DNA of 64,000 nt from Hyphomonadaceae bacterium ML37 (GTDB taxonomy: Bacteria; Pseudomonadota; Alphaproteobacteria; Caulobacterales; Maricaulaceae): NCBI GenBank assembly GCA_027627685.1, contig CP091241.1:767149-831148 (forward strand), read 5' to 3'. The position numbers and the translations under genes are program-made. The notes below the pieces were generated by a model. That model saw nothing but the letters and a program-made list of their open reading frames with translations. It was not told the DNA's origin and ran no database searches. Below are positions 26,587 to 48,221 of this stretch, in pieces; position 1 is the stretch's first letter, and the number at the start of each line of letters is the position of its first letter.

Positions 26587-27525
26587 ATGGACAAGACACT
26601 TCTTATCGCGGCGGTGGTGATCGGCGTGCTGGTGGCTGTGGGGGTCTGGCTGTGGACGCCGGATCTGTCGCGTGAACGGCTGGAGGCGGCGTATCTGCGT
26701 TCCGCCTCGGACATGATGGATGTGGAGGGCGCGCGCCTGCATGTGCGCGCCGATGGTCCGGCAGACGCGCCCGCGATCATCATGATCCACGGGTTCGGTT
26801 CCAGCTTGCACACCTGGGAAGACTGGGCCGCCGCCCTTTCGGACCGGTACCGTGTGGTGCGCTTCGATCTGCCGGGCTCCGGCCTGTCGCCGCCGGACCC
26901 GGCGGGGCGCTATGACGATGCGCGCGCGTTCGAGCTCCTCCTGGGACTGATGGCCCGTCTGGAGGTTGGCGAGGCGGCGATCATCGGCAATTCCGTGGGC
27001 GGACGGATCGCCTGGTCTTTCGCCAGTGAACACCCGGACAGGGTGTCGCGGCTGGTTCTGATCGCGCCGGACGGGTTCGCCAGCGTGGGGTTTGAGTATG
27101 GCGAGGCGCCCAAGATCGGCGCGGTCACCCACGCCATGCGCGCGATCCTGCCGCGCTTTCTGGTCAAGATGAATCTGGACCAGAGCTATAGCGATCCCGC
27201 GCGCCTCGAGCCGCACGTGGTGGCGCGATACTATGATCTTCTGCGGGCGCCGGGTGCGCGCCTGGCCCTGATCCACCGTATGGAGCAGACGATTCTCACC
27301 GATCCGCTGGCGCGTCTGGCCGCCCTGGACAAACCGGTGCTCCTGCTCTGGGGCGAGGATGACCGGCTGATCCCGGTGTCGAACGCGCAGGACTATCTTG
27401 GCGCGCTGCCGGACGCTCAGCTGACGGCGCTGCCCGGTGTCGGGCATCTGCCCCAGGAGGAAGCCCCGGATGAGAGCCTTATTCCGGTAGAGGCCTTTCT
27501 CAGCGCACTGAGGGACGGCGCATGA
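26587..27525 (+). CDS. Membrane-anchored alpha/beta hydrolase
   Basis: A protein of 312 residues with an N-terminal membrane helix (about 4-23: TLLIAAVVIGVLVAVGVWLW). The alpha/beta hydrolase core has oxyanion HGFGSSLHTW, nucleophile elbow GNSVGG (Ser136), acid in LLLWGEDDRLIP and catalytic His in GVGHLPQEE. It is ATGA-coupled to the FrhB-like gene. Similar pairs of an alpha/beta hydrolase with a pigment-type reductase occur in photosynthetic gene clusters (BchO type), but a general esterase role is equally possible. Confidence 0.88.
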   Translation: MDKTLLIAAVVIGVLVAVGVWLWTPDLSRERLEAAYLRSASDMMDVEGARLHVRADGPADAPAIIMIHGFGSSLHTWEDWAAALSDRYRVVRFDLPGSGLSPPDPAGRYDDARAFELLLGLMARLEVGEAAIIGNSVGGRIAWSFASEHPDRVSRLVLIAPDGFASVGFEYGEAPKIGAVTHAMRAILPRFLVKMNLDQSYSDPARLEPHVVARYYDLLRAPGARLALIHRMEQTILTDPLARLAALDKPVLLLWGEDDRLIPVSNAQDYLGALPDAQLTALPGVGHLPQEEAPDESLIPVEAFLSALRDGA

Positions 27526-28799
27526 CGGCAATTTTGCCTGAAGCTGACGGCGTCACCGCGCCGCCCGTGCGCGAGCCGGTGGCGCGTCATCTGTGCACTG
27601 ATTGCGGCGTGTCGCGCATGGAGGACCCCAAAGCGTGCGGGCGGGCCTGCCAGTTCATCAAGCCGGACTATGAGCGGCTGGAAGCGAAGGTCCATGGCCG
27701 CACGCGCGATCCGGCGCGTCCCGACGAGCTGCATTTCGGACCCTTCCGCCGCATGGTGCGCGCCTCGCTCAAAGCCCCGCGGCCAGGCGCCCAATGGACC
27801 GGCATCACCACGCGGCTGGCCGAGCGCCTGCTGGAGCGGGACGCCGTGGATGTGGTGCTGACCATGGCGCCGGACCCGGAGGATCGGTGGAAGCCCGTGC
27901 CGGTGCTGGTGACCAAGGCCGAGGGCATGGCGCAGGTGCGCGGCATGCGCATGGGCTACGCGCCGCTCCTGGCGCTGCTCGAACCAGTGCGTGAGCGCGG
28001 CTACAAGCGCGTCGCCGTCATCGGCATTCCGTGCCAAGTCTACGCCCTTCGGGCGCTCGAGGAGGAGCTGGGCCTCGACAAGCTCTATGTTATCGGCACG
28101 CCGTGTTCTGACAATACGACCACGCAGCGCTTCCATGATTTTCTGGCGCTGTTGTCTGACCAGCCCGAGACCATCACCTATCTGGAGTTCCGGGCCGATT
28201 ATCAGGTGGAGCTGCGCTTCGAGGACGGGGAGGTCAAAACCATCCCGTTCCTGAAACTGCCCATCTCCAAGCTGCCGCCCGATTTCTTCCCGCTCACCTG
28301 CCGCACCTGCGTGGATTACACCAATGTGCTGGCCGACATCACGGTGGGGTATATGGGCGGGCAGGGCGAGCAGTGGCTGCTGGTTCGCAATGAGACCGGC
28401 GAGGAGCTGATCTCGCTGATCGAGGATGAAGTGACGCTGGCCGAGCCCGGCTCGGCGGGAAAGCGCCAGTCGGCCGTGACGGGGTTCATCGCCAACACCG
28501 AGCGCGCGGCGGGCGGATTGCCCCTGCGCGGCATGCCCGATTGGGTGCGGCCCCTCGTGGCCTGGCTGATGCCCCGGATCGGCCCCAGAGGGCTGGAGTT
28601 TGCCCGGGCGCGGGTGGAGATGAAGGCGTCTGAAACCGTGCTGCATCTGCGCCGTCAGGAGCCCCGGCGCATGAAGTCCATGATCCCCGATCATGTCTGG
28701 AAGCTGGTGGCGCCCTATGGGCTGACGCCCTTGGAAGGCGAGCAGGCCGGTGGCGATGGCGAGACCGCGCAAGACCCGCCGTCAGGCACGATCGGATAG
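27522..28799 (+). CDS. Coenzyme F420 hydrogenase/dehydrogenase beta-subunit family protein (FrhB/HCAR/BciB-like)
   Basis: A protein of 425 residues. The N-terminal Cys cluster (LCTDCGVSRMEDPKACGRAC), the central IGIPCQVYALRALE and FPLTCRTCVDYTNVLADITVG are the hallmark Cys motifs of the FrhB family, binding Fe-S clusters and FAD. Chlorophyll-pathway members (7-hydroxymethyl chlorophyll a reductase HCAR, divinyl reductase BciB) share this layout and use ferredoxin rather than F420. No F420 genes and no bacteriochlorophyll genes are in the window, so the substrate is open. The start overlaps the hydrolase stop as ATGA. Confidence 0.85.
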   Translation: MTAILPEADGVTAPPVREPVARHLCTDCGVSRMEDPKACGRACQFIKPDYERLEAKVHGRTRDPARPDELHFGPFRRMVRASLKAPRPGAQWTGITTRLAERLLERDAVDVVLTMAPDPEDRWKPVPVLVTKAEGMAQVRGMRMGYAPLLALLEPVRERGYKRVAVIGIPCQVYALRALEEELGLDKLYVIGTPCSDNTTTQRFHDFLALLSDQPETITYLEFRADYQVELRFEDGEVKTIPFLKLPISKLPPDFFPLTCRTCVDYTNVLADITVGYMGGQGEQWLLVRNETGEELISLIEDEVTLAEPGSAGKRQSAVTGFIANTERAAGGLPLRGMPDWVRPLVAWLMPRIGPRGLEFARARVEMKASETVLHLRRQEPRRMKSMIPDHVWKLVAPYGLTPLEGEQAGGDGETAQDPPSGTIG

Positions 28800-28950: not shown

Positions 28951-29364
28951 ATGAGTGTGTTTCGGGCGATCTACACCTCGCGGCCGTTCGGGTTTGATAC
29001 CGGCATTCTGCGCAGCGTCCTTATGGACGCCCGCCGCTGCAATGAGCGCGATGGCGTCACCGGCGCCCTGATCTGCCGCGCAGACATTTATCTTCAATGG
29101 CTTGAGGGTCACGAAGAGCTTGTGCGGCGCACGCTGGAGCGCATCAAGCGCGATGACCGCCATCTTGAGGTCAAGCTGCATGTGGCCGAGACTGTTCCGG
29201 AACAGGTGTTTGGCGAATGGGCCATGCTCCACGATCCGGCGACGAGCTGGATCTGGACTCAGGACGAGGTCACCGCCGGGGCGGCAGAGCGCGCGACGCC
29301 GGAAGAAATCACCGGCTTCTTCCTCAGACTGCGCGACGAAAGCCGTATGCCGGATGCCGGTTGA
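28951..29364 (+). CDS. BLUF-domain blue-light sensor
   Basis: A protein of 137 residues, essentially one BLUF domain. The residues that bind and switch FAD are present: Tyr8 (AIYTSRPF), Asn31 (RRCNERDGVTGAL), Gln49 (YLQWLEG) and Trp90/Met92 (GEWAMLHDP). The domain senses blue light through flavin hydrogen-bond rearrangement. There is no fused output domain, so it must signal by protein contact. It lies 230 bp upstream of the propionyl-CoA synthase gene in the same direction. A link to that operon is suggestive but not shown. Confidence 0.93.
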   Translation: MSVFRAIYTSRPFGFDTGILRSVLMDARRCNERDGVTGALICRADIYLQWLEGHEELVRRTLERIKRDDRHLEVKLHVAETVPEQVFGEWAMLHDPATSWIWTQDEVTAGAAERATPEEITGFFLRLRDESRMPDAG

Positions 29365-29595
29365 CCGCTTGAGCAGACGACAGCCTGAGGCGGCCGCACG
29401 CGCGCCCGCCATACGTGAGCCAGTCCGGACCCGGCCCAATTTTGTTGCAAAGCAACATGTGGACGGAGTGACGGGCGTGCGCTAGCGTTCATGAAAATTC
29501 TGACTTGCCGGGGCGGGACAGTCCGGATCCGGCAAGCAATGAAGCGCGTTGCCGGCCAGGCTGGTCAGGCGCAGACGCGATCGGGGGGACGAGTT

Positions 29596-32500
29596 TTGAC
29601 GAACCAGATGATCAGGCTTCCTGTTGCGGCGCGCAATGAAGTGTTGGATGCGAAAGCCTGGACCGCCATGCGCCAGGCCTGCCTGGCGGACCCCGGCGCG
29701 TTTCATGGCGCACTGGCCAAGCGGCATCTGGCCTGGCTGATCCCTGACCAAGGCGAACAGGGCGTGTGGGCGCAGTTTGATCGCGACAGCGGCGTTTGGC
29801 GCGGCTGGGACGCGAAAACGGCAGCGCCGGTGACGCTGGACCTGCCTGTCTCGTTTGAGCCATGGGACACGGCGTTCAACGCCTCCAACGCGCCCAACTG
29901 GCGCTGGTTCGAGGGCGGCCTGACCAACGCCGCCTTCAACGAGGTGGACCGCCATGTGCTGGCCGGTCATGGCGATGAAGCCGCGCTGATCTTCGAAGGT
30001 GACCGCTGGAACATGTCGAGCGAAGGCGGGCGCGGCGGGCCGGTGGACACCTATCCGGTGTCGCGCAAAGTCCTGTTGCTGGAGAGCGCCAAGTGCGCGC
30101 TGGCGCTGAAGGCGCTGGGCCTGAAGGCCGGCGACCGTATCGCGCTGAACATGCCCAACATCCCCCAACAGATTTTCTGGACCGAGGGCGCCAAGCGCCT
30201 GGGCGTGATCTACACGCCGGTGTTCGGCGGCTTCAGCGACAAGACATTGTCAGACCGCATCGCCGACGCCGGCGCGCGGGTGATCGTCACGGCGGACGGC
30301 ACCTATCGCAACGCCCAGCTGGTGCCGTTCAAGCCCAGCTATACCGACCCGGCGCTGGACAATTTCATCGCGGTCAACGTCGCCAAGTCGATCCTGGCTG
30401 AAACCCTTGAGAACTCCGCGTTGGAGATCAGCGAAAGCGACGCCGCGCGCATCACCACCGCGGTGGACGAGACGCTGGCGGGCGAGGTGACGGTGGAGCG
30501 CTCGGACGTCATGCGCGGCGTCGGGCGGGCTTTGTCGGAGATGGGCCAGACCGGGTCGATCAGCGCCCGGCAGGCCGCTGATCTGCGCATCGCCGCGGCG
30601 GCCGCGCTGGTGGATTCGCCGCCGCGCGCCGACACCGTCATCGTGGTGCGCCATACCGGTCAGGCGGAGCTGAACTGGACCGCATCGCGCGACCGCTGGA
30701 GCCATGAGCTGACGGATGCCGCCAGCGAGACCCTGCTCAAGGCCGCGCGCGATGCCGGGTTTGATGTGGCCGATGAAGCGGCCTTGCTGACGCTGCCCGA
30801 CGGCGAGTTTGTGCAGGCAGTCTGGGCCGCGTCCAAGCCGCTGCCGGTCGACGCCGAATACCCCAATTTCATCATCTACACCTCGGGCTCCACGGGTAAG
30901 CCCAAGGGCGTGGTGCATGTCCATGGCGGCTATTGCGCCGGGATCGCGGCGACCATGGAAGTCGCGTTCGATGCCGCGCCGGGCGATGTCATGTTCGTGG
31001 TGGCCGATCCGGGCTGGATCACGGGCCAGTCCTATCTGATCGCCGGGGCGCTGTTGACCCGGGTTACCTCGATCATCGCCGAGGGCTCGCCGGTCTTCCC
31101 CCATGCGGGGCGCTTCGCCTCGATCATCGAGCGCCAAAAGGTCAATATCTTCAAGGCCGGAGTGACGTTCCTCAAATCGGTCATGCAGGACCCGGAAAAC
31201 CTCAACGATATCAAGACCTATGATCTGTCCGGCCTGAAGGTCGCGACCTTCTGCGCCGAGCCGGTCTCGCCTGCGGTCCAGGCTTTCGCCATGGAGCATG
31301 TGGCGCCCTGGTACATCAATTCCTACTGGGCGACCGAACATGGCGGGATCGTCTGGACCCATTTCTATGGCGCGAAGGATTTCGCCCTGCGCCCCGATGC
31401 CCACACCTATCCGCTGCCCTGGATCGTGGGCGATGTGTGGGTGGAGGACGCCGACGTCGCGAGGCCGGACGTGGGCGCGGACGTGCTCAAGCGCGGCGAA
31501 GATCAGGGCGCGCCGTGGCGCCGGGCGGACAAGGGCGAGAAGGGCGAGATCGTCATCGCGCTGCCCTATCCCTATCTGGCGCGCACGATCTGGGGCGACA
31601 CGCAGAATTTCGTAGTTGAGTCCGACGGCCCCGGCGCCCGCATACAAGCGGGCTGGAGGGGCGATGCCCAGCGCTATGGCGACACGTACTGGCGGCGCTG
31701 GCGCGGGGCATGGGCGTACACACAGGGCGATTTCGCCATCGCCCATGAGGACGGCTCGTTCTCGCTGCATGGCCGCTCGGATGACGTGATCAACGTCTCG
31801 GGCCACCGCATCGGCACCGAGGAGATCGAAGGCGCGATCCTGCGCGACAAGGCGCTCGATCCCAACTCGCCCGTGGGCAATGTGCTGGTGATCGGTGCGC
31901 CGCATCGCGAAAAGGGCGTCACCCCGGTGGCTTTCATCACCCCGGCGGCGGGCGCGAAACTGACCCTGGACGACAAGCGGCGTCTCACAGATCTGGTGCG
32001 CACCGAAAAGGGCGCGGTCGCCGTGCCGTCTGATTTTCTTGAAGTGCCGGAGTTTCCCGAAACCCGCAGCGGCAAATACATGCGCCGCATGGTGCGCGCC
32101 ATCGTGGAAGGCGGCGAGGTGGGCGACACGTCCACCCTGCGCAATCCGGGCAGCCTGGACGCCCTGCGGCGCGTCGTGGCTGACTGGAACGCCCGCCAGA
32201 AGCGCTCTGAAGAGCAGGCGCTGTTTGAGCGCTACCGCTATTTCCTGGTCCAGTACAACGCCGCCGCCAAGGGCAAGCGGGTGGCCACGGTCACGGTCAA
32301 CAACCCGCCGGTGAACGCGCTGAACGAGCGCGCGATCGATGAGCTGGCCACTATCGTGGAGCACTTGTCGCGCAAGGACGACGTGGCCGCCGTGGTGTTC
32401 ACCGGCTCCGGCTCCAGCTCCTTCGTGGCGGGCGCGGACATTCGCCAGATGCTCGAAGAGGTTAACACGCTGTCCGAGGCGATGGCCCTGCCCAGCAACG

Positions 32501-35100
32501 CCCAGCTGGCGTTCCGGCGCATCGAGATGATGAACAAACCTTGTATCGCGGCGATCCAGGGCCTCGCGCTGGGCGGGGGGATGGAGTTTGCGCTGGCCTG
32601 CCATTACCGCATCGCCGAACCGACGGCGCGCTTTGGCCAGCCGGAGATCAATCTGCGCCTGCTGCCCGGCTATGGCGGGACGCAGCGCCTGCCGCGCCTG
32701 CTGGCGGACCGCCATCCCGAGACCGGCCTGCGCGACGCGCTGGACCTGATCCTGGGCGGACGCGCGATTGACGCGGACGCGGCGCTGGCGCTGGGCGCGA
32801 TTGACGTGGTGGCTGACGGCCCCACCGACGTCCTCTCGCTGGCCCACGCGGCTGTGCGCGATTTCGTGCGTGACCCCGATGGCAGCACGCTGGGGCAGGC
32901 CTTCAAGGAGCGCCGCGCGGCGACGCAGCGCTGGGAGCAGCCGGGAGAAGCCGATCTCGACGCGGCGCTGGCCGATGATTTCGTGCAACGCATCCTGCGC
33001 CAGCTGGACTGGGCCGGACGCGGCAAGGCAGGTGAGCGGGCACTGGACGCCATCAGAACCGGCTGGAATTCCGGGATGGCGGACGGGCTGGCGCGCGAAG
33101 CCGAAGCCTTCGCCGAAGCCATCATGGACCCCGAGGGCGGCAAGACCGGCATCCGCCTGTTCATGGACAAGCAGGCGCCGTCACTGCCCGTGCGCCGCGA
33201 TGGCGTGTGGATCGACGACGAGCACGCACCGCGCAAGGCCACGCTGATCGAAGACGGTCAGATGCTGGCGCTGGGCGCGCCCTTCTATCCGGGGATCACG
33301 CCGATCCCGCCCTATCAGCTCGCCTTCGGGATTGCGCGCGATCCCGATACCGGCGCGCCGCGCTTTGGGCCGCCGGCCACGCACGAGAAGGAGCTGATCG
33401 TTCCCGTGCGCCTGCCCGAGCCCAACGAGGCGCTGGTCTACATGCTGACCTCGGAGGTCAATTTCAACGATAACTGGGCGCTCACCGGCATTCCGGTCTC
33501 GCCGTTTGACGGCCATGACGAGGACGTGCAGATCACCGGCTCCGGCGGTCTGGCCCTGATCGCGGCGCTGGGCGCCGAGGCCAAGGCCGAAGGCCGGCTG
33601 AAAGTCGGCGATCTGGTCAATGTCTATTCAGGCACCAGCGAGCTGTTGTCTCCGGCGGCGGGCGAGGACCCGATGTATGCCGGCTTCGCCATTCAGGGCT
33701 ATGAGACCAAGACGGGCAGCCACGCCCAGTTCCTGAACGTCCAGGCGCCCCAGCTTCATGTCCCGCCCGCCGACCTGACGCTGGAGCAGGCGGGCGCTTA
33801 CACGCTGAACCTTGGCACGATCACACGCTGCCTGTTCACCACACTTCAGATTACGCCGGGCAAGACGATTTTCGTCGAGGGCGCCGCCACCGGCACGGGG
33901 CTCGACGCGCTCAAGAGCAGCGTGCGCACGGGGCTCGCAGCCACGGGGCTGGTCTCCAGCGATGACCGCGCGGACTTCATCAAGACCCAAGGCGCGGTCG
34001 GCGCGATCAATCGCAAGGACCCGCAAATCGCCGGCGCCTTCACGCCGGTGCCCGACGACGCGGACGCGGCCAGGGCCTGGGAGGCGGCGGGACTGCCGAT
34101 CCTGGAGCGCTACAAGGCGATGAATGACGGCAAGCTTGCCGATTATGTGGTGAGCCACGCCGGTGAGCGCGCCTTCCCCAGGAGCTTCCAGCTCCTGGCC
34201 GAGGGCGGGGCGCTCGCCTTCTACGGCGCGTCTTCAGGCTATCATTTCAGCTATATGGGCAAGCCGGGCGAGGCCTCGCCCGCCGACATGCTGGCGCGCG
34301 CGGGCCTGCGCGGCGGGGAATCGGTGCTGCTCTATTACGGGGCGGGGTCCGGCGAGCTCGCCGATCCCAAAGGGCTGGAGATGATCGAGGCGGCGCGCCT
34401 GTTCAAGGCGCGCATCGCGGTGGTTGCCTATTCCGACGCCCAACGCGAATTCCTGCAATCGTTGGGTCTGGAAGACGCGGTGGAGGGCGTGATCTCCATC
34501 GAGGGCCTCAAACGCCGCGACCCGGATTTCCACTGGCCGCTCACACTGCCGCGCCTGCCCGACGCCAAGACCGAGACCGAAGCCTTCAAACGCGGCGTGC
34601 GCGATTATCAGCAGAACACGCTCAAGCCCTTCGGGTCGGCAGTGGGCAAGCTCTTGCGCTCGCCTGGCAATCCGCGCGGGGCGCCCGACCTGGTGATCGA
34701 GCGCGCGGCGGTGGATACGCTGGGCGTGTCGTCCTCGCTGGTGCGCCCGTTCGGCGGACGCGTGGTCTATGCTGAGGACATGTCGGGCCGGCGCTATACC
34801 TTCTACGCGCCCCAGGTCTGGACGCGCCAGCGGCGCATATTGATGCCCACCGCCTCGATCCTGGGCACGCATTTGTGTAACGCGCACGAGGTCACGGTCA
34901 TGAATTCCATGATCGCGGCGGGCCTGCTGGATGTGACCGAACCGACCATGACCCCTTGGGAAGACCTGCCCAAGGCCCACCAGGCGATGTGGGACAACGC
35001 CCATTCGGGGGCGACCTATGTGGTCAATCACGCCTTGCCGGCGGCGGGTTTGCGCAGCCGGGACGAGTTGTTGGAGCATTGGGCGGCGGCCGAGGATTAA
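29596..35100 (+). CDS. pcs: Trifunctional propionyl-CoA synthase (3-hydroxypropionate pathway)
   Basis: A protein of about 1834 residues, the length of Chloroflexus propionyl-CoA synthase. Domain 1 is an acyl-CoA synthetase: YTSGSTGKPKG at 428-438, RSDDVINVSGHR at 727 and the catalytic Lys in TRSGKYMRR at about 827. Domain 2 is an enoyl-CoA hydratase (from about 895): VAGADIRQML, LGGGMEFALACHYR and GQPEINLRLLPGYGG, with both catalytic Glu. Domain 3 is an enoyl-CoA reductase (from about 1285): EVNFNDNWALTGIPVS and NADPH-binding EGAATGTGLDA. Reaction: 3-hydroxypropionate + CoA + ATP + NADPH to propionyl-CoA. The TTG at 29596 has GGGGGGA 6 bases upstream; ATG 29608 is the alternative. It is followed at 46 bp by malonyl-CoA reductase. 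Confidence 0.96.
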   Translation: MTNQMIRLPVAARNEVLDAKAWTAMRQACLADPGAFHGALAKRHLAWLIPDQGEQGVWAQFDRDSGVWRGWDAKTAAPVTLDLPVSFEPWDTAFNASNAPNWRWFEGGLTNAAFNEVDRHVLAGHGDEAALIFEGDRWNMSSEGGRGGPVDTYPVSRKVLLLESAKCALALKALGLKAGDRIALNMPNIPQQIFWTEGAKRLGVIYTPVFGGFSDKTLSDRIADAGARVIVTADGTYRNAQLVPFKPSYTDPALDNFIAVNVAKSILAETLENSALEISESDAARITTAVDETLAGEVTVERSDVMRGVGRALSEMGQTGSISARQAADLRIAAAAALVDSPPRADTVIVVRHTGQAELNWTASRDRWSHELTDAASETLLKAARDAGFDVADEAALLTLPDGEFVQAVWAASKPLPVDAEYPNFIIYTSGSTGKPKGVVHVHGGYCAGIAATMEVAFDAAPGDVMFVVADPGWITGQSYLIAGALLTRVTSIIAEGSPVFPHAGRFASIIERQKVNIFKAGVTFLKSVMQDPENLNDIKTYDLSGLKVATFCAEPVSPAVQAFAMEHVAPWYINSYWATEHGGIVWTHFYGAKDFALRPDAHTYPLPWIVGDVWVEDADVARPDVGADVLKRGEDQGAPWRRADKGEKGEIVIALPYPYLARTIWGDTQNFVVESDGPGARIQAGWRGDAQRYGDTYWRRWRGAWAYTQGDFAIAHEDGSFSLHGRSDDVINVSGHRIGTEEIEGAILRDKALDPNSPVGNVLVIGAPHREKGVTPVAFITPAAGAKLTLDDKRRLTDLVRTEKGAVAVPSDFLEVPEFPETRSGKYMRRMVRAIVEGGEVGDTSTLRNPGSLDALRRVVADWNARQKRSEEQALFERYRYFLVQYNAAAKGKRVATVTVNNPPVNALNERAIDELATIVEHLSRKDDVAAVVFTGSGSSSFVAGADIRQMLEEVNTLSEAMALPSNAQLAFRRIEMMNKPCIAAIQGLALGGGMEFALACHYRIAEPTARFGQPEINLRLLPGYGGTQRLPRLLADRHPETGLRDALDLILGGRAIDADAALALGAIDVVADGPTDVLSLAHAAVRDFVRDPDGSTLGQAFKERRAATQRWEQPGEADLDAALADDFVQRILRQLDWAGRGKAGERALDAIRTGWNSGMADGLAREAEAFAEAIMDPEGGKTGIRLFMDKQAPSLPVRRDGVWIDDEHAPRKATLIEDGQMLALGAPFYPGITPIPPYQLAFGIARDPDTGAPRFGPPATHEKELIVPVRLPEPNEALVYMLTSEVNFNDNWALTGIPVSPFDGHDEDVQITGSGGLALIAALGAEAKAEGRLKVGDLVNVYSGTSELLSPAAGEDPMYAGFAIQGYETKTGSHAQFLNVQAPQLHVPPADLTLEQAGAYTLNLGTITRCLFTTLQITPGKTIFVEGAATGTGLDALKSSVRTGLAATGLVSSDDRADFIKTQGAVGAINRKDPQIAGAFTPVPDDADAARAWEAAGLPILERYKAMNDGKLADYVVSHAGERAFPRSFQLLAEGGALAFYGASSGYHFSYMGKPGEASPADMLARAGLRGGESVLLYYGAGSGELADPKGLEMIEAARLFKARIAVVAYSDAQREFLQSLGLEDAVEGVISIEGLKRRDPDFHWPLTLPRLPDAKTETEAFKRGVRDYQQNTLKPFGSAVGKLLRSPGNPRGAPDLVIERAAVDTLGVSSSLVRPFGGRVVYAEDMSGRRYTFYAPQVWTRQRRILMPTASILGTHLCNAHEVTVMNSMIAAGLLDVTEPTMTPWEDLPKAHQAMWDNAHSGATYVVNHALPAAGLRSRDELLEHWAAAED

Positions 35101-35146
35101 CGGCCGCCCGCCACACCGATTTTTTTGAGTGACCAGGAGAGCTTTC

Positions 35147-38100
35147 ATGGCCGGCAAAACCCGCGACGTCGCAGCGCCTCAATCGCGAACCTCAGGTGCG
35201 GGCCGATTGGATGGAAAAATCGTCCTGATCACGGGCGCTGCGGGCAATCTCGGCAGCGAGATGGCGCGCCGGTTCGCCGATGAGGGCGCCACGCTGATCC
35301 TGACCGGGCGTACGCGCGATCGCATTGAGGCAGCGTGCGCCGCAGTGGTCGCCCAGACCGGCGTGGCGGCGGAACGTGTTGCGCCCCTGGTGCTCGACGG
35401 CGGTGATCCGGGGTCGGTGCGCGCGGCCATGGACGAGGTGAGGGCGAAGTTCGGCCGCATCGACGTGCTGGTCAACAATGCCGGATCGCCCGGTCCCAAA
35501 CAGCCGCTGGACAATGTGCCGCTGTCGAAAGCCGAGATGGAGGCCAACGGCGATACCGAGACCGTCGGCGACGCCATGCGCAATATTTTGGCGGTCACCT
35601 GGAATCTGGCGCGGGCGGCGGCGGACCTGATGCAGCCGGGCGCGGCGATCATCAATATCTCCACGATCTTCTCCCACACGCGCTACTATGGCCGCATCGC
35701 CTATGTGGTGCCCAAGGCGGCGCTGAACGCGCTGTCGCGCCAGCTGGCCGGCGAGTTCGGGGCCCGCGGCGTGCGGGTCAATAATGTGTTTCCCGGCCCT
35801 ATCGAGAGCGAACGCATCCGCACGGTGTTCGCGGCGATGGACAAGGTTCAGGGCAATAAGGACGGCGAAACGGCCGAATACTTCATGGGCCGCATGTCGC
35901 TGCGCCGCAGCGTCGACGGCGCGCCGCCCGAGCGCACCTTGCCGACCCCGGCCGATATCGCCCAGACCTGCCTGTTCCTCGCCAGCGACGAATCCGCCGC
36001 GCTCAATGGCGCGGAGATCGACGTGGCCCACGGGATGAGCGTGCGCAAGGAATCGCGCTCCACCTACAAGACCCGTCCGTCCCTGCGGGCGCTGGATGGC
36101 GCGGGCCTGACGGTCCTCATCGTGGCGGGCGAGAGCTGGGATGATGCGCTGGAGACGGCGCGCATTCAGGTCGGCTGCGGCGCGCGCGTGCTGCTGGGCA
36201 TGGCGCGCGAGGCTGACGTGGCGCAGGCCAAGGCCCGCACCCAGGCCCAGGGCCTGGTCGACGGTCTGACCATTGTGCGCTTCAATCGCACCGAGCCGGA
36301 AACCATGGCCGAGACGCTGAACGCCTACAGCGCGCAGCACGGTCCGGTGACCAGCGCCATCGTGCTGCCGCTCAAGCCGGCGCAATACTTCGCCGGGGCG
36401 CTGCTCGACGCAGACGACGCCACTGTGGACGAGTTCATGGACGTGGAGCTGGTGGGCGGCATCGCCATCGCCCGCACCCTGTCGCGCTACTGGAAGACCC
36501 GCAGCGATTTGGAACAGCCGCCGCGTTATGTCTTCATGACCAATGCCAGCGACGGCGCGGGCGATGTGTACAGCCAGGTGCTCACTGCTGCGATGACCCA
36601 GCTGATCCGCATCTGGCGCGACGAGGCGCGCGTGGATGTGGAGGCGGGCCGCTTCCCCCATGCTGTGTGGGGCAATCAGATTGTCCGCTTTTCCAATCGC
36701 GAGCGGGAAAACATCCGCTTCGCCGCCGGCCATGCGACGCGCATCGTCTTCAAGGAGCAGCGGATCGCCAATATCGATCTGCATGTGCCCGAGAAGATCG
36801 GCGAGGAGACCGGCGCCACCAGCGCCATGGTGGGCTTTGCCGAGAACATTACCGGCCTGCATCTGGGCAAGGTCGCCCTGATCACCGGCGGTTCAGCGGG
36901 CATTGGCGGCCAGGTCGCGCGCCTGCTGGCGCTGGCCGGGGCCAAGGTGATGATGGTCGCCCGGCGCGCCAGCGAGCTGGAAGCGGCGAGAGACCGCATC
37001 ATCGGCGAGCTTCAGGATATCGGCTTCTCCGGCGTGGAGCGCCGCGTGCGCATCATGGCCGATGTGGATGTCAGCGATTTCGCCTCGCTCAAGACTGCGC
37101 TGGACGCCACCATCGCGGCATGGGGCCGGGTGGATTATCTCATCAACAACGCCGGGGTCGCCGGGGCCGAGGACATGGTCGTGGACATGGATCTCGACGC
37201 CTGGCGCTTCACCCTCGACGCCAATCTGATCTCGAACTACTACCTGACACACCACGCCGCGCCGCTGATGAAGGCGCAGGGCGGCGGGTATGTGCTGAAC
37301 GTGTCGTCCTATTTTGGCGGCGAGAAGCTGCGCGCCGTGGCCTATCCCAACCGGGCCGACTACGCCGTCTCCAAGGCTGGCCAGCGCGCCATGGTGGAGA
37401 GCTTCTCGCAGTTTCTCGGGCCGATCATCCAGCTCAACGCCATTGCGCCGGGTCCTGTGGATGGTGACCGCCTGTCGGGCGTCGGCGGCAAGCCGGGCCT
37501 GTTCCAGCGCCGTGCGCGGCTGATCCTGGAAAACAAGCGCCTCAACTCGGTCTATGCCGAAGTGATCAAGTCGGTGCGCGAGGGCGCGTCTGTCGCCACG
37601 GTGCTCAACCGGCTATCGCATAATACGGCTGGGGTCCTGTCCCACGACATGCTGGCGCCGTCGGGTCTGCGCAAGCTGGCGCTGAAAATCGCGCGCGAGG
37701 GTGACGGCGTGTGCACCTGGGACCAGTACATTCTGACCCCGGCGCTGGCCGAGCGGCTTCTGTCGCGCCTGCGGCTGGGCGGTTATTTGCTGGACGTGCC
37801 GGCGTGGCGCGACCTGCCCGGGGACAAGGCCAAGGGCGGCTGGCTGCGCATCACGCCGCCGGACGATGCGCCCTTCCTGCCCCAGGGCCTGATCAACAAG
37901 AACGCCGAGCAGATCGGCGAGGGCGTATTGTCCCAGCTGCATCTGGGCAAGATGCCCACCGAGGCCGATGTGGCCCAGGCCACGGTGTTCTATCTGGCTG
38001 ACCGCGCGGTCAGCGGCGAGACCTTCATGCCGTCCGGCGGCCTGAATGTGGAGCGCTCCACGGTGGAGCGCGACATGTTCGGCGGGCCGCGCCCGGAGCG

Positions 38101-38827
38101 CGTGGAGAAGCTGCGCGGCAAGACGGTCTGGTTCGCCGGTGATCATCTGGCCGACTATATCGCCGCGGCCTCCCAGCGCCTAATCGACGAATGCGGCGTG
38201 GCCGGTGTGGTCGTGCTGGCGCGCACCAAGGCGGGTGGCAAGGCGGTCACGGACATGATCGACGGCGAGGCGGCCAAGTCAGTCCATGTGGTCGTGTCGG
38301 GCGATGATATCGAGGACGCCATGGACAAGGCGCTGGCCAAATGGGGCCGTCCGGCCACTGTGGTGTCGCTGCCCGGCGACGTCCTGCCCGACCGGCTGTT
38401 CGAGGACGATGCGCCGCTTACGCCTGAAGCCTTCAGCCAGGTGGTGGAGGACAATCTGACCCGGCATTTCCGGGTGTCGCGCAAGGCCTCGCTCTATGAC
38501 GGGTGCCAGCTGGTGCTGGTGTCGCCGGACGTGGCGGTGGGCGCCAATGCGCCGGCCCACGCCATCGCCAACTTCATCAAGACCACGCTGCACGCGTTCA
38601 CCGCGACGCTGGCCGTGGAGAATGAGCGGCTGGTGCACAATGTGCCGACCAACCAGATCAACCTCACCCGCCGCGTGCGCTCGGAAGAGCCGCGCAATGA
38701 GGAGGAGCACCAGGAGGAGCTGCGCCGTTTCGCGACGGCCATTCTGCTGGTCGGCGCGCCGCTGCCCGATTCGCAGGATTCGCGTTATCGCTCGCGCATC
38801 TATCGCGGGACGTCGATGACGGTGTAG
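35147..38827 (+). CDS. mcr: Bifunctional malonyl-CoA reductase (NADPH)
   Basis: A protein of 1226 residues made of two halves with SDR folds. The N-terminal half has ITGAAGNLGSEMARRF (Gly30 region) and Tyr186-x3-Lys190 (AYVVPKAALN). The C-terminal half has ITGGSAGIGGQVARL (near 581) and Tyr739-x3-Lys743 (NRADYAVSKAGQRA). This is the layout and size of Chloroflexus malonyl-CoA reductase. There the C-terminal half makes malonate semialdehyde from malonyl-CoA, and the N-terminal half reduces it to 3-hydroxypropionate. The far C-terminus (YRSRIYRGTSMTV) also matches the family. CAGGAGA precedes ATG 35147. Co-transcription with the propionyl-CoA synthase gene is very likely. Confidence 0.96.
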   Translation: MAGKTRDVAAPQSRTSGAGRLDGKIVLITGAAGNLGSEMARRFADEGATLILTGRTRDRIEAACAAVVAQTGVAAERVAPLVLDGGDPGSVRAAMDEVRAKFGRIDVLVNNAGSPGPKQPLDNVPLSKAEMEANGDTETVGDAMRNILAVTWNLARAAADLMQPGAAIINISTIFSHTRYYGRIAYVVPKAALNALSRQLAGEFGARGVRVNNVFPGPIESERIRTVFAAMDKVQGNKDGETAEYFMGRMSLRRSVDGAPPERTLPTPADIAQTCLFLASDESAALNGAEIDVAHGMSVRKESRSTYKTRPSLRALDGAGLTVLIVAGESWDDALETARIQVGCGARVLLGMAREADVAQAKARTQAQGLVDGLTIVRFNRTEPETMAETLNAYSAQHGPVTSAIVLPLKPAQYFAGALLDADDATVDEFMDVELVGGIAIARTLSRYWKTRSDLEQPPRYVFMTNASDGAGDVYSQVLTAAMTQLIRIWRDEARVDVEAGRFPHAVWGNQIVRFSNRERENIRFAAGHATRIVFKEQRIANIDLHVPEKIGEETGATSAMVGFAENITGLHLGKVALITGGSAGIGGQVARLLALAGAKVMMVARRASELEAARDRIIGELQDIGFSGVERRVRIMADVDVSDFASLKTALDATIAAWGRVDYLINNAGVAGAEDMVVDMDLDAWRFTLDANLISNYYLTHHAAPLMKAQGGGYVLNVSSYFGGEKLRAVAYPNRADYAVSKAGQRAMVESFSQFLGPIIQLNAIAPGPVDGDRLSGVGGKPGLFQRRARLILENKRLNSVYAEVIKSVREGASVATVLNRLSHNTAGVLSHDMLAPSGLRKLALKIAREGDGVCTWDQYILTPALAERLLSRLRLGGYLLDVPAWRDLPGDKAKGGWLRITPPDDAPFLPQGLINKNAEQIGEGVLSQLHLGKMPTEADVAQATVFYLADRAVSGETFMPSGGLNVERSTVERDMFGGPRPERVEKLRGKTVWFAGDHLADYIAAASQRLIDECGVAGVVVLARTKAGGKAVTDMIDGEAAKSVHVVVSGDDIEDAMDKALAKWGRPATVVSLPGDVLPDRLFEDDAPLTPEAFSQVVEDNLTRHFRVSRKASLYDGCQLVLVSPDVAVGANAPAHAIANFIKTTLHAFTATLAVENERLVHNVPTNQINLTRRVRSEEPRNEEEHQEELRRFATAILLVGAPLPDSQDSRYRSRIYRGTSMTV

Positions 38828-38891: not shown

Positions 38892-40106
38892 CTATACGCG
38901 CTCGATAATCATCGCCGAGCCTGTGCCCGAGCCCCCGTGGGCGACGGCCAGGCCCAGCGATCCGCCGCAGCGGATGAGCTCGTGAACCAGCGTGGTCAGC
39001 AGGATCGCGCCGGTGGCGCCCATGGGATGTCCCATGGCCAGGTGGCCGCCATTGAGATTGACCCGGTCCGGGTCGGCGTCGCGGTCGCGCCGGAACAGGG
39101 CAGGCACGGCGGCAAACGCCTCCATGAACTCGATCCGGTCAAAATCGCGCAAGCTCAGCCCTGTCTCTTCAAGCAGCGCGTCCATGGCGGCGAAGCCCGC
39201 CGTGAGCTGGTCCACCGGATCACCGCCCCGGTCTATGCGAGCCCGGATGCGCGCTTTGGGTTTGAGCCCCGCCGCCTCGCCCGCGGCTTTCGAGCCGATC
39301 AGCACCAGCGCCGCGCCGTCGGCCATGGGCGGGCAGTGGGCGATGGCATGGAGATGCGTGATCTGCTCAAGCCCCGGATTGGCCGCCAGCATCATGGCGT
39401 CGTAGCCCGCCGCGCCCAGCTTTTCGAAAGCCGGGGGCAGGGCGTCTAGCGCTGCCTGATCCATGCCGGAGCGGATGCATTCATCGCGCTCCAGCAGCGC
39501 GTCTCCGTCCGGCCCGCGCACAGGGATGACCGCCGCGTCATGGCGCCCCTCCGCCCAGGCGCGCGCCGCGCGCTGGTGGGAGGCGATGACTTCATGGTCC
39601 AGCGCCGCCCGGTCCAGACCGGCCTTGGTGGCCAGCAGATCGGCGGACAGCGCCACCGGCGCATAGCGCAGGGCGCGCGCCAGATCCGGGTCGGTGTAAT
39701 AGCTCGCCTTGTCGCCCATGAAGGGCGCATGGCTCATCATCTCCACCCCGCCCGCCAGCATCAGGCGGTTCTCGCCGGCGCTGGCCAGCGCGGCGGCCTG
39801 TCCGGCAGCGGTGAGGCCCGCCACGCAGAAATTATTCAGCGTCCAGGCGGTCGTGTCATGGGGCAGGCCGGCGTGCAGCCGGCTGACCAGCGCGATATTG
39901 CCGCCCTGGGCGCCCACCTGACCGACACAGCCCAGGATCAGCGCGCTGGCGCTGTCGACGGCGCCTGCGCCTGCGCGGTCTTTGAGCGCCGCGACCAGCT
40001 GGGCCACAAGTTCATGGGGCCCGAGCCCGGCCAGCGCGCCGTCCTCACGCCCTTTGCCGCGTGGCGTGCGCACGGCGTCGTAGATATAGGCGTCGGTGAG
40101 TGTCAT
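38892..40106 (-). CDS. Thiolase-family acetyl-CoA acyltransferase with altered second active site
   Basis: A protein of 404 residues. N-terminal start YDAVRTPRGKG, nucleophilic Cys94 in LNNFCVAGLTAAGQ, SHAPFMG, and GGHLAMGHPMGATG with the catalytic His. The C-terminal position that normally holds the second catalytic Cys (in C-x-G-G-G) reads AVAHGGSG here, with His390 in its place. It would cleave or condense acyl-CoA esters if active. It is ATGA-coupled to the upstream thiolase-like gene. Both run against the malonyl-CoA reductase operon, so they are not part of it. Likely role is beta-oxidation of an unusual acyl-CoA. Confidence 0.85.
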   Translation of the reverse strand: MTLTDAYIYDAVRTPRGKGREDGALAGLGPHELVAQLVAALKDRAGAGAVDSASALILGCVGQVGAQGGNIALVSRLHAGLPHDTTAWTLNNFCVAGLTAAGQAAALASAGENRLMLAGGVEMMSHAPFMGDKASYYTDPDLARALRYAPVALSADLLATKAGLDRAALDHEVIASHQRAARAWAEGRHDAAVIPVRGPDGDALLERDECIRSGMDQAALDALPPAFEKLGAAGYDAMMLAANPGLEQITHLHAIAHCPPMADGAALVLIGSKAAGEAAGLKPKARIRARIDRGGDPVDQLTAGFAAMDALLEETGLSLRDFDRIEFMEAFAAVPALFRRDRDADPDRVNLNGGHLAMGHPMGATGAILLTTLVHELIRCGGSLGLAVAHGGSGTGSAMIIERV

Positions 40107-41338
40107 GCGCCGATCACCAGCGACACGTTGGCGGTGGCGGACCCGCCGACATTATAGGTGGCGACATTGCGCGCGCCTTCCACCTGACAGTCTCCGGCGC
40201 TGCCCTGAACCTGACGCGCGGCGTCGAGCGCCATGCGCACGCCTGTGGCGCCCACCGGATGGCCAAGCCCGATCAGCCCGCCCGACGGATTGACCGGGCA
40301 GCGCCCGCCCAGCGCGATGCGGCCGTCCTCCACCGCCTCGCCCGCGCGGCCCGGCGCGGTGATGCCGAAATGCTCGATCGCGGCCAGTTCGGTGATGGAG
40401 AAGCAGTCATGGGTCTCGAACGCGTCGATCTGATCGGCGCCGGACAGGCCTGCGCGCCCGTAGGCGTCGGTCATGGCCTTGCGCATCCACGGGAACATCC
40501 AGCCATCATTGCGCCCGCGCGAGGCCGCCAGCTTGGTCTCCAGAAGTAGCGGCGCGGTGGTGTGGCCCCAGCCCTTGATCCGGGGGATGTCCTCCAGCCG
40601 CTGCCCCGTCCTTGCGGCGTGGGCGCGCGCCGCGTCTGCGCCGGCCAGCACGATCATGGCGGCGCCGTCAGTGACCTGACCGCAATCGGATTTGCGCATG
40701 CGCCCTTCGATGACCGGGTTGGCCTCGTCATCTTCCGAGAAGCTCGCTTCGGTAAAGGTCCAGCTGCGGCTCTGGGCGTGGGGATTGCGCCGGGCGTTGG
40801 CGAAATTGATCCGGCTTATCTCGGCCAGATGGGCGCGCTCCAGACCAAAGCGCGCGTCATATTCCTCAACGATGTCGGAGAACATGGCAGGCCACAGATA
40901 GGTCGCGCCCTGCGCCTCGCGCCCCGCCCAGGCGGCGGCGCCCAGATGCTCGGCGGCGGTCTGGCCGGGCACGTTGCGCATCATTTCCACGCCCAGCACG
41001 GCGGCGATCCCATAGCGGCCCGATTCGATGTCGGCCATGGCCGCCAGGATCGCCATGGAGCCTGACGCGCAGGCCGCCTCATGGCGCATGGTGGGCAGGC
41101 CTTCCAGATCGGGGTGGATATGGCCCATGAACCCGCCCAGCAGGCCCTGGCCGCAGAACAGCTCGCCGGCGAAATTGCCTATATGAATGGTCTCGATCTG
41201 CGAGGGCTCCAGGCGCGCATTGTCCAGCCCCTCCAGCATCGCCTCGCCCATCAGGGCCTTGAGATCATGACCCTCGCGGGTCCAGTTGCGCGCGAAATCG
41301 GTCTGCGCCCCGCCCAGAATGAACACCTCGCCCGCCAT
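40103..41338 (-). CDS. SCP-x-type thiolase-family protein
   Basis: A protein of 411 residues from MAGEVFILGGAQTDF. Nucleophile Cys lies in RHEAACASGSMAILAAM, a catalytic-type His in THDCFSITELAA, and the NPSGGLIGLGHPVGATG loop follows. The C-terminus (YNVGGSATANVSLV) lacks the second Cys, as in the SCP-x (sterol carrier protein thiolase) branch. These enzymes act on long-chain, branched or steroid side-chain acyl-CoAs. GGGAGG precedes the ATG. It is the first gene of a two-gene operon with the other thiolase. Confidence 0.85.
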   Translation of the reverse strand: MAGEVFILGGAQTDFARNWTREGHDLKALMGEAMLEGLDNARLEPSQIETIHIGNFAGELFCGQGLLGGFMGHIHPDLEGLPTMRHEAACASGSMAILAAMADIESGRYGIAAVLGVEMMRNVPGQTAAEHLGAAAWAGREAQGATYLWPAMFSDIVEEYDARFGLERAHLAEISRINFANARRNPHAQSRSWTFTEASFSEDDEANPVIEGRMRKSDCGQVTDGAAMIVLAGADAARAHAARTGQRLEDIPRIKGWGHTTAPLLLETKLAASRGRNDGWMFPWMRKAMTDAYGRAGLSGADQIDAFETHDCFSITELAAIEHFGITAPGRAGEAVEDGRIALGGRCPVNPSGGLIGLGHPVGATGVRMALDAARQVQGSAGDCQVEGARNVATYNVGGSATANVSLVIGA

Positions 41339-41514
41339 GGCCGCCTCCCGCTGTCCGTCTGACAAAAGAGGCTAGGGGCAATCGGCGGGGGGACACAAGC
41401 GCTGACCGGAATGGTCTTGCCTTGCCCGGCCTTGCCTCGCGATCTGTGACGCCGCACACTTCGCACCATCTGACACGCCGGCTTGGCGCCTGCGCGATCC
41501 GAAGGAGAGCCGCC

Positions 41515-42963
41515 ATGACCATGATCGTGACCGAGTTCGAGCGCGAGGAGCTGAGCACGCCGCTCAACCAGCTCAACCCCTATCTCAAGGGCGTCTACGC
41601 GCCGGTGCGCGAGGAGGTGACAGCGCTGGACCTGACGGTGGAGGGCGAGATTCCGCGCGATCTGTATGGTCTGTACGTGCGCAATGGGCCCAACCCGCTC
41701 AACGCGCCGGAGGGCATGCATCACTGGTTTGACGGCGACGGCATGCTGCACGGCATTTATTTTGAGAACGGCAAGGCGGAATACCGCAACCGCTATATCC
41801 GCTCGGCTGATCATGACGCCGAACGCGCGGGTTCGCTGGATGCCGGTGGCATCATGATGCCCGCCAACAAGACCCGCCAGCCGACGACCTACAAGGATAC
41901 CGCCAATACCGACGTGGTCTTCCACAATGGCTCGCTGATGGCGCTCTGGTATGTCTCCGGCCAGCCGGTGCGCGTGGATGCGCGCACGCTGGAGACGGTG
42001 CGCACAGAGACCTTCTCCGGCCGCCTGCCGAAAAACGTGTCAGCCCATTCCAAGGTCGATCCGGAAACCGGCGAGTTCGTGTTCTTCGATTATGATCTCT
42101 ACAAGCCGGTGATGAGCGCGGGGGTGATCTCACGCGACAATGACCTCAGCTGGTTTCGCGAGATTGAACTGCCGGGTCCCCGCCTGCCTCACGACATGGC
42201 GATCACCGAGAACTACATGGTCCTGATGGATTTGCCGGTGGTGTTCACCGAGTCCGGCCTGCGCAACGGCATGTGGCAGATCAAACAGCCCAAGGGTCAA
42301 GCGACTAGGTTCGGCGTGCTGCGCAAGGACGGGACCGGCGATGTGCGCTGGTTCGAGGCGGACCCATGCTACATTTATCATGGCGTCAATGCGTGGGAGG
42401 AGGGCGACGAGATCGTCTTCTTTGCCTGCAAGATGATCCCCAATGGCCTGACCCCCGACCCGGCCTACGGGCCGTACGCGCCCATGGTTGGCGTGCTGGC
42501 GCTGCAGGCGGTGCTGCATGAATGGCGTTTCAATTTGAAGACCGGCGCCGTGAGCGAGCGGCCCGTGGATGACCGGGTCACCGAGTTTCCGGTGATCAAT
42601 CTGGACAAGACGGGGCGCAAGAGCCGGTATTCCTACCATGTCTCCATCCCCAACACGCAGACCCAGTTGTTTGACGGGCTGGTGAAGTACGACCTTTCCA
42701 CCGGCAACGGCGAGGCGCATCCGTTTGGCCCCGGACGCTACGGCTCCGAGCCGGCCTATGCGCCCAGGGTCGGCGCGAAGGATGAGGATGACGGCTATGT
42801 CATCAGCTTCGTGTTCGATGCGCAAAGCGGCGCGTCAGAGGCGCTGATTCTCAATGCCAAGGATTTCTCGCAGCCGCCGCTCGCGCGGGTGAAGCTGCCC
42901 CAGCGCGTCCCGGCCGGTTTCCACGCCGCTTGGGCGGCGGGCGACCAGATCCGCGCCGTGTGA
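41515..42963 (+). CDS. Carotenoid oxygenase (RPE65/CCD family)
   Basis: A protein of 482 residues. It starts with the family-like YLKGVYAPVREEVTALDL and GLYVRNGPNP. The four His iron ligands appear in SAHSKVDP, LPHDMAIT, YIYHGVNAW and C-terminal PAGFHAAW. The expected DGDGMLHGI follows HHWF near the N-terminus. Family members use Fe(II) and O2 to cleave carotenoid or stilbene double bonds, giving apocarotenals such as retinal. AAGGAGAG precedes ATG 41515. It is divergent from the thiolase pair and next to the SOUL heme gene. Confidence 0.93.
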   Translation: MTMIVTEFEREELSTPLNQLNPYLKGVYAPVREEVTALDLTVEGEIPRDLYGLYVRNGPNPLNAPEGMHHWFDGDGMLHGIYFENGKAEYRNRYIRSADHDAERAGSLDAGGIMMPANKTRQPTTYKDTANTDVVFHNGSLMALWYVSGQPVRVDARTLETVRTETFSGRLPKNVSAHSKVDPETGEFVFFDYDLYKPVMSAGVISRDNDLSWFREIELPGPRLPHDMAITENYMVLMDLPVVFTESGLRNGMWQIKQPKGQATRFGVLRKDGTGDVRWFEADPCYIYHGVNAWEEGDEIVFFACKMIPNGLTPDPAYGPYAPMVGVLALQAVLHEWRFNLKTGAVSERPVDDRVTEFPVINLDKTGRKSRYSYHVSIPNTQTQLFDGLVKYDLSTGNGEAHPFGPGRYGSEPAYAPRVGAKDEDDGYVISFVFDAQSGASEALILNAKDFSQPPLARVKLPQRVPAGFHAAWAAGDQIRAV

Positions 42964-42970
42964 CGCGAAC

Positions 42971-43612
42971 CTAGCGCGCGATCTCGATCAGCACTTCGTT
43001 GCGTCGCATCGGCGTGGGGGTCCAAGGCGGATTGTAGCGGGCATACACCGGCTCGCCGATGATCTCATAGCCCTCGGCCGTAAGGAAAGCGGCGAGCTCG
43101 TCGGCCTTGCGCATGAAACGCGACTCATTGGGGCCGCCAGCAAACCGGATTGCGGCGAGGCGCCGGGCCGGCTGCTCCCGCACGGTGACTGCCGGATCAT
43201 TGGGGCGCGGCAACGTCTCCAGGGTCCAGGTCTCGGGCATGATGAAGGCCACGCGCCACGTCTCGCCGCCGGCTTGCGTGCGGGTCTGGGTGACGGGCGT
43301 GGTCATCGCGATGCGTTCGGACCGGGACTGGATCACCGGGGCGGTCATGGCGATGTTTTCGCCGCCCCCGCCGCGGGGCGGCTGGTTGTCGCCGAAGATG
43401 AATCCGGCCAGCGGGCGGAAGCCCTGATTTCCGGCGCGCGTCATGTCGCCGCTCGCTTCCACCTCGGCCAGGATGAGCGCGGGATAGTCGCGGATCTCGA
43501 TATCGCCCTGCGCGCGCACCAGCACATAGGCCGGTTCATCGGAGGCGTGGGCTTGGGATGAAGCAGCGGTGACCATGACGAGGACCAGCATCCAGCGGAG
43601 CGTGTGAATCAT
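42971..43612 (-). CDS. Exported SOUL-family heme-binding protein
   Basis: A protein of 213 residues with a signal peptide (MIHTLRWMLVLVMVTAASSQAHA). The SOUL domain covers the rest: IEIRDYPALILAEVEASGDM, FIFGDNQ, IAMTAPVIQ, IAMTTPVTQ and the C-terminal YARYNPPWTPTPMRRNEVLI, all typical. Members bind heme or tetrapyrrole. AGGAG precedes ATG 43612. A perfect GGAAC-N16-CGTT EcfG promoter lies just upstream. It converges with the carotenoid oxygenase gene (7 bp apart). Confidence 0.93.
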   Translation of the reverse strand: MIHTLRWMLVLVMVTAASSQAHASDEPAYVLVRAQGDIEIRDYPALILAEVEASGDMTRAGNQGFRPLAGFIFGDNQPPRGGGGENIAMTAPVIQSRSERIAMTTPVTQTRTQAGGETWRVAFIMPETWTLETLPRPNDPAVTVREQPARRLAAIRFAGGPNESRFMRKADELAAFLTAEGYEIIGEPVYARYNPPWTPTPMRRNEVLIEIAR

Positions 43613-43645
43613 CGGGGAACTCCTAAACACGTCCTCTATACGTCG

Positions 43646-46240: not shown

Positions 46241-46252
46241 GGGAAATCCACC

Positions 46253-47011: not shown

Positions 47012-47017
47012 CCGGCG

Positions 47018-48179: not shown

Positions 48180-48189
48180 CGGACGAAGG

Positions 48190-48210
48190 GCGCGCCGGTC
48201 GCCGGCGCGC
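48190..48210 (+). promoter_or_regulatory. Hairpin between ccoP and ccoG
   Basis: GCGCGCCGG (48190-48198), TCG loop, CCGGCGCGC (48202-48210): a perfect 9-bp stem in the 42-bp gap, with no T-run. It could partly stop or process the message between the structural (ccoNOQP) and assembly (ccoGHIS) halves. Confidence 0.5.
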
Positions 48211-48221
48211 GGAGACAGGTC

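Follow-up and report, generated by a model that had tools for sequence, protein, structure and literature searches.

Propionyl-coenzyme A (CoA) synthase (PCS) and malonyl-CoA reductase (MCR), whose reactions are established for the enzymes of Chloroflexus and of Erythrobacter NAP1, catalyze the two key reactions of the 3-hydroxypropionate bi-cycle of Chloroflexus and Roseiflexus. Earlier work cited in PMC9802188 reports both enzymes from Alpha- and Gammaproteobacteria. Key enzymes of the bi-cycle are made by Porphyrobacter ULC335, as they are by NAP1, and co-assimilation of CO2 has been proposed; the pair and its anaplerotic role are already in print for NAP1-like bacteria (PMC10674011). Here we describe a pcs-mcr gene pair in a 64,000-nucleotide stretch of DNA (the window; positions 767,149 to 831,148 of contig CP091241.1) from the complete 3,038,461-bp genome of Hyphomonadaceae bacterium ML37, a member of the Maricaulaceae. 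We consider it likely, from gene content and conserved residues, that this pair is a module for CO2-dependent anaplerosis, which leads from acetyl-CoA to succinyl-CoA and uses light-derived reductant and ATP.

Comparison between the window pair and the pairs of the aerobic anoxygenic phototrophic sphingomonads (NAP1 and Blastomonas/Sphingomonas) revealed that (i) the same two fused enzymes are encoded in the same order, with identities of 75–76% for PCS and 67–70% for MCR; (ii) all six PCS-bearing sphingomonad genomes tested, like the host, have reaction-centre genes and no RuBisCO; (iii) unlike the sphingomonad pair, the window pair resides in a Maricaulaceae host and has different flanking genes; and (iv) the clade of the window, unlike the sphingomonads, has an island of BLUF and BciB-like genes upstream and a palindrome that was not seen upstream of pcs elsewhere.

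The pcs gene (29596..35100, plus strand) encodes a predicted PCS of 1834 residues, a fusion of 3-hydroxypropionyl-CoA ligase, dehydratase and acryloyl-CoA reductase. Its longest open reading frame (29491–35100, 1869 residues) begins at ATG 29491, which is probably not the start of the gene. TTG 29596 is the most likely start, because the N-terminal extension is not conserved, the sister species G012 has an in-frame stop upstream of the TTG, and a promoter-like block ends at 29489. A purine-rich GGGGGGACGAG stretch precedes this TTG. The Pfam domains follow each other as ACAS_N, AMP-binding, AMP-binding_C, enoyl-CoA hydratase and zinc-type reductase, that is to say, in the ligase–hydratase–reductase order expected of a PCS, and the size agrees with the expected length of about 1800 residues. 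The only solved chain that matched the protein over its length was 6EQO (3181 bits). 6EQO aligned with the NAP1 PCS (locus L010) at 4186 bits over 1821 residues and is therefore that enzyme or one very close to it. The window PCS is 76% identical to the NAP1 enzyme. Lys827 in the ligase and Glu997 and Glu1017 in the crotonase site, which we take to be catalytic from general knowledge of these families, were invariant in all 24 aligned rows, as were the glycines of the dinucleotide-binding motif VEGAATGTG.

The mcr gene (35147..38827, plus strand) encodes a predicted bifunctional MCR. The open reading frame spans 35129–38827 (1232 residues), and an AGGAG stretch precedes ATG 35147; with this ATG as the start, the protein has 1226 residues and the gene lies 46 bp after pcs. 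The protein aligned over its full length with the solved structures 8HI4 (1124 bits) and 8HJW (1107 bits). A nearer enzyme, probably the Porphyrobacter dokdonensis MCR, has been solved as two separate halves, which scored 657 bits (6K8V) and 1034 bits (6K8S); the Chloroflexus/Roseiflexus MCR is thus the more distant one. Short-chain dehydrogenase/reductase (SDR) Pfam matches were found in both halves. The numbering of 8HI4 fits the Roseiflexus enzyme described in PMC10470521, in which two of the four SDR-type domains are catalytic. The residues listed there are Thr165, Tyr172, Arg175, Tyr178 and Lys182 in SDR1, and Ser731, Tyr743, Arg746, Tyr749, Lys753, Arg785, Leu795, Arg799 and Arg1164 in SDR3, SDR4 and the extra domain. 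Alignments revealed that every one of them, including the SDR1 triad, the substrate residues, the SDR3 triad and Arg1164, is matched in the window MCR, and their equivalents were conserved in all 20 MCR rows.

An earlier note on this DNA, made by a model from the letters and open reading frames, had read the locus as a 1834-residue PCS 46 bp upstream of a 1226-residue MCR with intact catalytic motifs. The start-codon analysis bears out the lengths and the spacing, the PCS Lys and Glu residues and the MCR Tyr and other residues tested are all kept, and the domain order, the residues and the close identity to NAP1 uphold the naming of both enzymes. Its description of MCR as a double-SDR protein is better replaced by one with four SDR-type domains of which two are catalytic, as in the structural report (PMC10470521).

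In the proposed scheme, acetyl-CoA carboxylase would supply malonyl-CoA, and MCR would convert malonyl-CoA with 2 NADPH to 3-hydroxypropionate. PCS would then activate 3-hydroxypropionate with ATP and CoA, dehydrate the product and reduce it with NADPH to propionyl-CoA, all within one protein. Propionyl-CoA carboxylase, an epimerase and methylmalonyl-CoA mutase would carry propionyl-CoA on to succinyl-CoA, for a predicted net reaction of acetyl-CoA, 2 bicarbonate, 3 NADPH and ATP to succinyl-CoA. In an aerobic anoxygenic phototroph, light would spare or supply the ATP and reductant that the pair consumes. We infer the enzyme activities, the direction of flux and the dependence on light from the sequences. 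The glyoxylate shunt and the ethylmalonyl-CoA pathway meet the same need by making C4 units from acetyl-CoA; of the former, the host carries an isocitrate lyase-family gene, and of the latter, crotonyl-CoA carboxylase did not exceed its cut-off.

The surrounding steps were sought in a set of 21 genomes, composed of 15 genomes of the host genus and the six PCS-bearing sphingomonads. Methylmalonyl-CoA mutase-family and carboxyltransferase-family genes were present in all 21. In the host, the mutase matched its NCBIfam equivalog model at 1240 bits (a small-subunit homologue fell below its cut-off), and six proteins matched the carboxyltransferase family, which is family-level evidence for the carboxylases. 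RuBisCO was found in none of the 21 genomes, host included (5 of 14 control genomes were positive), and crotonyl-CoA carboxylase exceeded its cut-off in none of the 21 and in 1 of the 14 controls. An isocitrate lyase-family match was present in 19 of the 21, the exceptions being G002, which has PCS, and G004, which lacks it. The genome search proposed in the earlier note therefore did recover carboxylase candidates and the mutase. Its statement that the remaining cycle genes are absent from the window holds for the part scanned: among the 22 window genes compared with the libraries (20886 to 53415), none was recognised as a carboxylase for acetyl- or propionyl-CoA, a mutase or a mesaconyl-CoA transferase (mct).

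The presence of MCR, PCS, mutase and carboxyltransferase genes, together with four CoA-transferase III genes in the host, is also what would be expected if the whole 3-hydroxypropionate bi-cycle were run as an autotrophic pathway. We regard such autotrophy as very improbable. The mct search suggested in the earlier note did return CoA-transferase III genes, yet their numbers were much alike with PCS (3–4 in the seven genus genomes) and without it (1–6 in eight genus genomes, with 4 in six of the eight); they do not rise with PCS and do not point to a dedicated mesaconyl-CoA transferase. In addition, a phototrophic family member of another genus did not show photoautotrophic growth (PMC13029026). 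The carboxyltransferase and mutase genes, the absence of RuBisCO and the lack of a sign of a dedicated mct make CO2-dependent anaplerosis, which the earlier note had proposed, the natural reading of the chemistry and the likeliest physiology.

Of 61 genomes searched, host included, seven carry PCS, and all of these belong to the host genus (7 of 15); the gene occurred in none of the 22 other family members and none of the 24 other order members. In the 21-genome set, MCR was present in all 13 PCS-bearing genomes (seven of the genus and six sphingomonads) and in none of the eight others. A sample across the class contained PCS in 5 of 385 alphaproteobacterial genomes, again with the host included. 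A scan of named genomes with two peptide patterns returned 25 loci, which were alphaproteobacterial only apart from L031 and L032; these two were rejected as spurious (26% and 23% identity). The other 23 have a genuine PCS, and mcr directly follows pcs in 20 of them, a count that includes L019 (pcs cut by the contig start) and L024 (mcr in two frames). The remaining three are cut by contig ends (L029 and L030) or have broken frames (L015). The broken pcs/mcr frames at L015 6932–14072, from the Erythrobacter metagenome-assembled genome MO_005.B18, and at L024 10515–14146, from G005, represent degraded genes or assembly errors. No third gene was common to all lineages among the 22 largest flank-gene clusters; apart from the pair and the shadow frames within it, shared flank genes were confined to a group of sphingomonad loci. 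A plasmid origin was considered and rejected, as a tblastn search of 72,556 plasmid records with MCR gave no match at E 1e-100.

The pair could instead serve the use or detoxification of 3-hydroxypropionate (or of acrylate and malonate semialdehyde), with PCS acting on external 3-hydroxypropionate and MCR on malonate semialdehyde. This prediction is matched by the divergent PCS genes of three alphaproteobacteria, G177, G189 and G390, which have no mcr in their fetched flanks, and two of these three genomes have no reaction-centre match. We nevertheless judge it unlikely for the window pair, since mcr follows pcs in 20 of the 23 genuine loci and the other three are cut or broken, no genome of the 21-genome set has MCR but lacks PCS, and the malonyl-CoA-binding residues of MCR are kept.

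The tie between the proposed anaplerosis module and light was assessed from gene co-occurrence. The host has pufL and pufM, and bchI, bchO, bchX, bchY and bchH exceed their NCBIfam cut-offs; the photosynthesis genes scanned span about 37 kb, or about 45 kb with neighbours named by eye. With pufL/pufM, bacteriochlorophyll genes and no RuBisCO, the host has the genomic features of an aerobic anoxygenic phototroph. Within the genus, reaction-centre genes were present in all seven genomes with PCS and in three of the eight without it (one-sided Fisher p 0.019, uncorrected for kinship; the seven share one PCS clade and are not independent, and G005 is counted on the strength of a single partial gene at the end of a contig). 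Across the class sample, 3 of the 5 PCS-bearing genomes and 23 of the 380 others had reaction-centre genes (p 0.0025); without the host genome, the former count was 2 of 4 (p 0.023). In Porphyrobacter ULC335, 3-hydroxypropionate genes are raised by day (PMC10674011). The genome G011 contains two separate pairs of reaction-centre gene matches (G011:C1 770818–772478 and 2175917–2177598).

Physical linkage was observed in one lineage. In G188, an alphaproteobacterium unrelated to the host, the pair adjoins the photosynthesis gene cluster in the order pcs, mcr, a DUF3422-like gene, pufM, pufL, bchZ, bchY, bchX, bchC and further crt/bch genes; bch genes were identified by match to the host cluster, and names other than puf, bchX, bchY, bchI and bchO were assigned by eye. 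A general link between the pair and the cluster was rejected: among L008–L028, L106–L108 and L110, cluster genes occurred only in the fetched flanks of L014, which is the same contig as G188/L105. A weak bchO match at L027 is its alpha/beta hydrolase neighbour.

Several observations weigh against light-driven anaplerosis as the role of the pair. PCS is not tied everywhere to light or to an adjacent MCR gene: the divergent PCS genes L106 (G189), L107 (G177) and L108 (G390), at 51–54% identity, are without mcr in the fetched flanks, to which this absence applies; G177 (81% complete) and G189 (93% complete) have no reaction-centre match, and G390 has reaction-centre genes together with its divergent PCS and no flanking mcr. 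Conversely, three genus genomes have reaction-centre genes without the pair. On the pathway side, the propionyl-CoA carboxylase is assigned by family membership only, its sole NCBIfam match at 1e-30 being methylmalonyl-CoA decarboxylase alpha, below the cut-off, and the isocitrate lyase-family gene of the host means that the pair need not be the sole route from acetyl-CoA to C4 units. A separate use of PCS is possible in G189, G177 and G390.

The left edge of the insertion site is a single-domain BLUF blue-light sensor gene (28951..29364, plus strand; PF04940, 79.8 bits) and the right edge a SOUL-domain gene (42971..43630, minus strand). In the sister species G012 and G001, the BLUF and SOUL genes directly enclose the pair. 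In the close relative G013 (94% complete, 5% contamination), which has reaction-centre genes and no PCS, the site is empty, with 15 bp between the ends of the two genes. The window has, in addition to the pair, two thiolases (minus strand) and a carotenoid-cleavage dioxygenase (plus strand) between the edges, together at 38892..42963; they are not beside mcr in G001 and G012. The same three genes were found near the BciB-like gene in G009, which lacks PCS, so the site may be a recurrent point of entry for blocks of genes. In G002, G003, G005 and G010, which make up the second group within the genus, no window neighbour lies beside the pair within the fetched flanks.

Quick trees of alphaproteobacterial sequences, with support from the Shimodaira–Hasegawa-like approximate likelihood ratio test (SH-aLRT) only, placed the Maricaulaceae PCS (seven rows) and MCR (six rows) in one clade each (SH-aLRT 100). 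The PCS tree was rooted on the three divergent alphaproteobacterial genes, which have long branches, and the program flagged this root as unsure. G005 was left out of the MCR tree, its mcr lying in two overlapping frames; L015, L019, L020, L022, L024, L026, L027, L029 and L030 (broken, cut or repeats, the repeats duplicating G010, G002, G005, G003 and G001) and the spurious L031 and L032 were left out of both. Identity between the two Maricaulaceae groups was 82–83% for PCS and 79–82% for MCR, which resembles that of the BciB-like gene (80–86%). The simplest history that would fit these data has the pair enter the genus once and relocate later, with losses; the BciB tree did not resolve the order of gain and loss.

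The empty site in G013, which has the same locus minus the pair, is what a recently acquired passenger without a role would leave among relatives. We find a passenger hardly credible. The ratio of nonsynonymous to synonymous substitution rates (dN/dS) was 0.073 for pcs and 0.038 for mcr against G012, and 0.04–0.08 for the two genes against two sister species, which indicates strongly purifying selection; the frames and residues are intact, and each gene forms one supported Maricaulaceae clade.

Between the BLUF gene and pcs lies a palindrome, TGTTGC-AAA-GCAACA (29443..29457, no strand), which is a candidate operator of the pcs-mcr operon. It is identical and in the same place in the window, G012 and G001, amid intergenic DNA much of which has diverged, and its motif matched once in the window against 0.01 matches expected. 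In 24 loci, the 420 bp preceding the aligned pcs start were checked, and the other 21 lack the exact palindrome there; looser TTGC..GCAA pairs occur upstream of pcs in L012 (two) and L025 (one). An operator common to all lineages was therefore rejected. The palindrome is followed by the promoter-like block TGGACGG-14-GCTAGCGTT (29460..29489, plus strand), which the alignment shows to be conserved in three species and for which a generic sigma-70 scan gave no match.

The sequence TGCAAAGCAACA within the palindrome fits the loose PhaR pattern NGCN3GC[GA]N3 reported for Bradyrhizobium (PMC10888616), and this fit is a lead only for candidate regulation. It bears on another explanation, in which the pair, under a PhaR-like regulator, would mainly supply propionyl-CoA for a storage polymer with 3-hydroxyvalerate units or for odd-chain lipids, as the two thiolases downstream in the window might also suggest. 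This supply role appears improbable to us: so loose a pattern is matched very readily in GC-rich DNA, and the thiolases are not beside mcr in the sister species.

More speculatively, pcs-mcr may form a mobile cassette that couples CO2 anaplerosis to light in alphaproteobacterial phototrophs, that comes and goes as a unit at defined sites, that is able to adjoin the photosynthesis gene cluster as in G188, and that is governed in the host genus by the palindromic operator between the BLUF gene and pcs; we put this forward tentatively and would sooner doubt it than rely on it. If true, the cassette would be the photoheterotroph counterpart of the Calvin-cycle genes in the photosynthesis gene clusters of some Caulobacterales, and in G002, with PCS and no isocitrate lyase-family match, the pair could be the sole route from acetyl-CoA to C4 units. 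Phototrophy genes of Maricaulaceae, and Calvin-cycle genes inside the photosynthesis gene clusters of other Caulobacterales, are described in PMC12700997, the main text of which does not contain the term 3-hydroxypropion. In the literature searched, we found no account of how the pair is distributed in Maricaulaceae, of the empty site, of the one case in which the pair adjoins the photosynthesis gene cluster or of the candidate operator.

CO2-dependent anaplerosis by this pair would extend a known CO2-using module to a family of stalked bacteria only recently recognised as phototrophic, and its presence is tied to phototrophy genes by a within-genus comparison, a class-wide sample and physical linkage in one genome. 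Close relatives with the module (G000, which is the window's genome, and G012) and without it (G013) suit the testing of light-driven CO2 uptake, and G002 provides a setting for the same question, which concerns aerobic anoxygenic phototrophs at large.

The remaining neighbours concern the flanks of the insertion site. Upstream of the BLUF gene, an FrhB-family gene (27522..28799, plus strand; Pfam FrhB_FdhB) encodes what is presumably a BciB-type 8-vinyl reductase of bacteriochlorophyll synthesis, located outside the main photosynthesis gene cluster. Within the genus, this BciB-like gene and the reaction-centre genes coincide exactly: 10 of 15 genomes have both and the other five have neither. 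It also occurs in five of the six PCS-bearing sphingomonads, NAP1 being the exception. The BLUF gene adjoins it, an arrangement conserved in G001, G012 and G013. BLUF was considered as an operon partner of pcs and judged unlikely, since it is kept beside the BciB-like gene in G013, which lacks pcs-mcr, and the conserved promoter-like block stands between BLUF and pcs. Just right of the insertion site, a cbb3 oxidase cluster (CcoN, CcoO, CcoP, CcoG, FixH and a copper ATPase) occupies 44585–52383.

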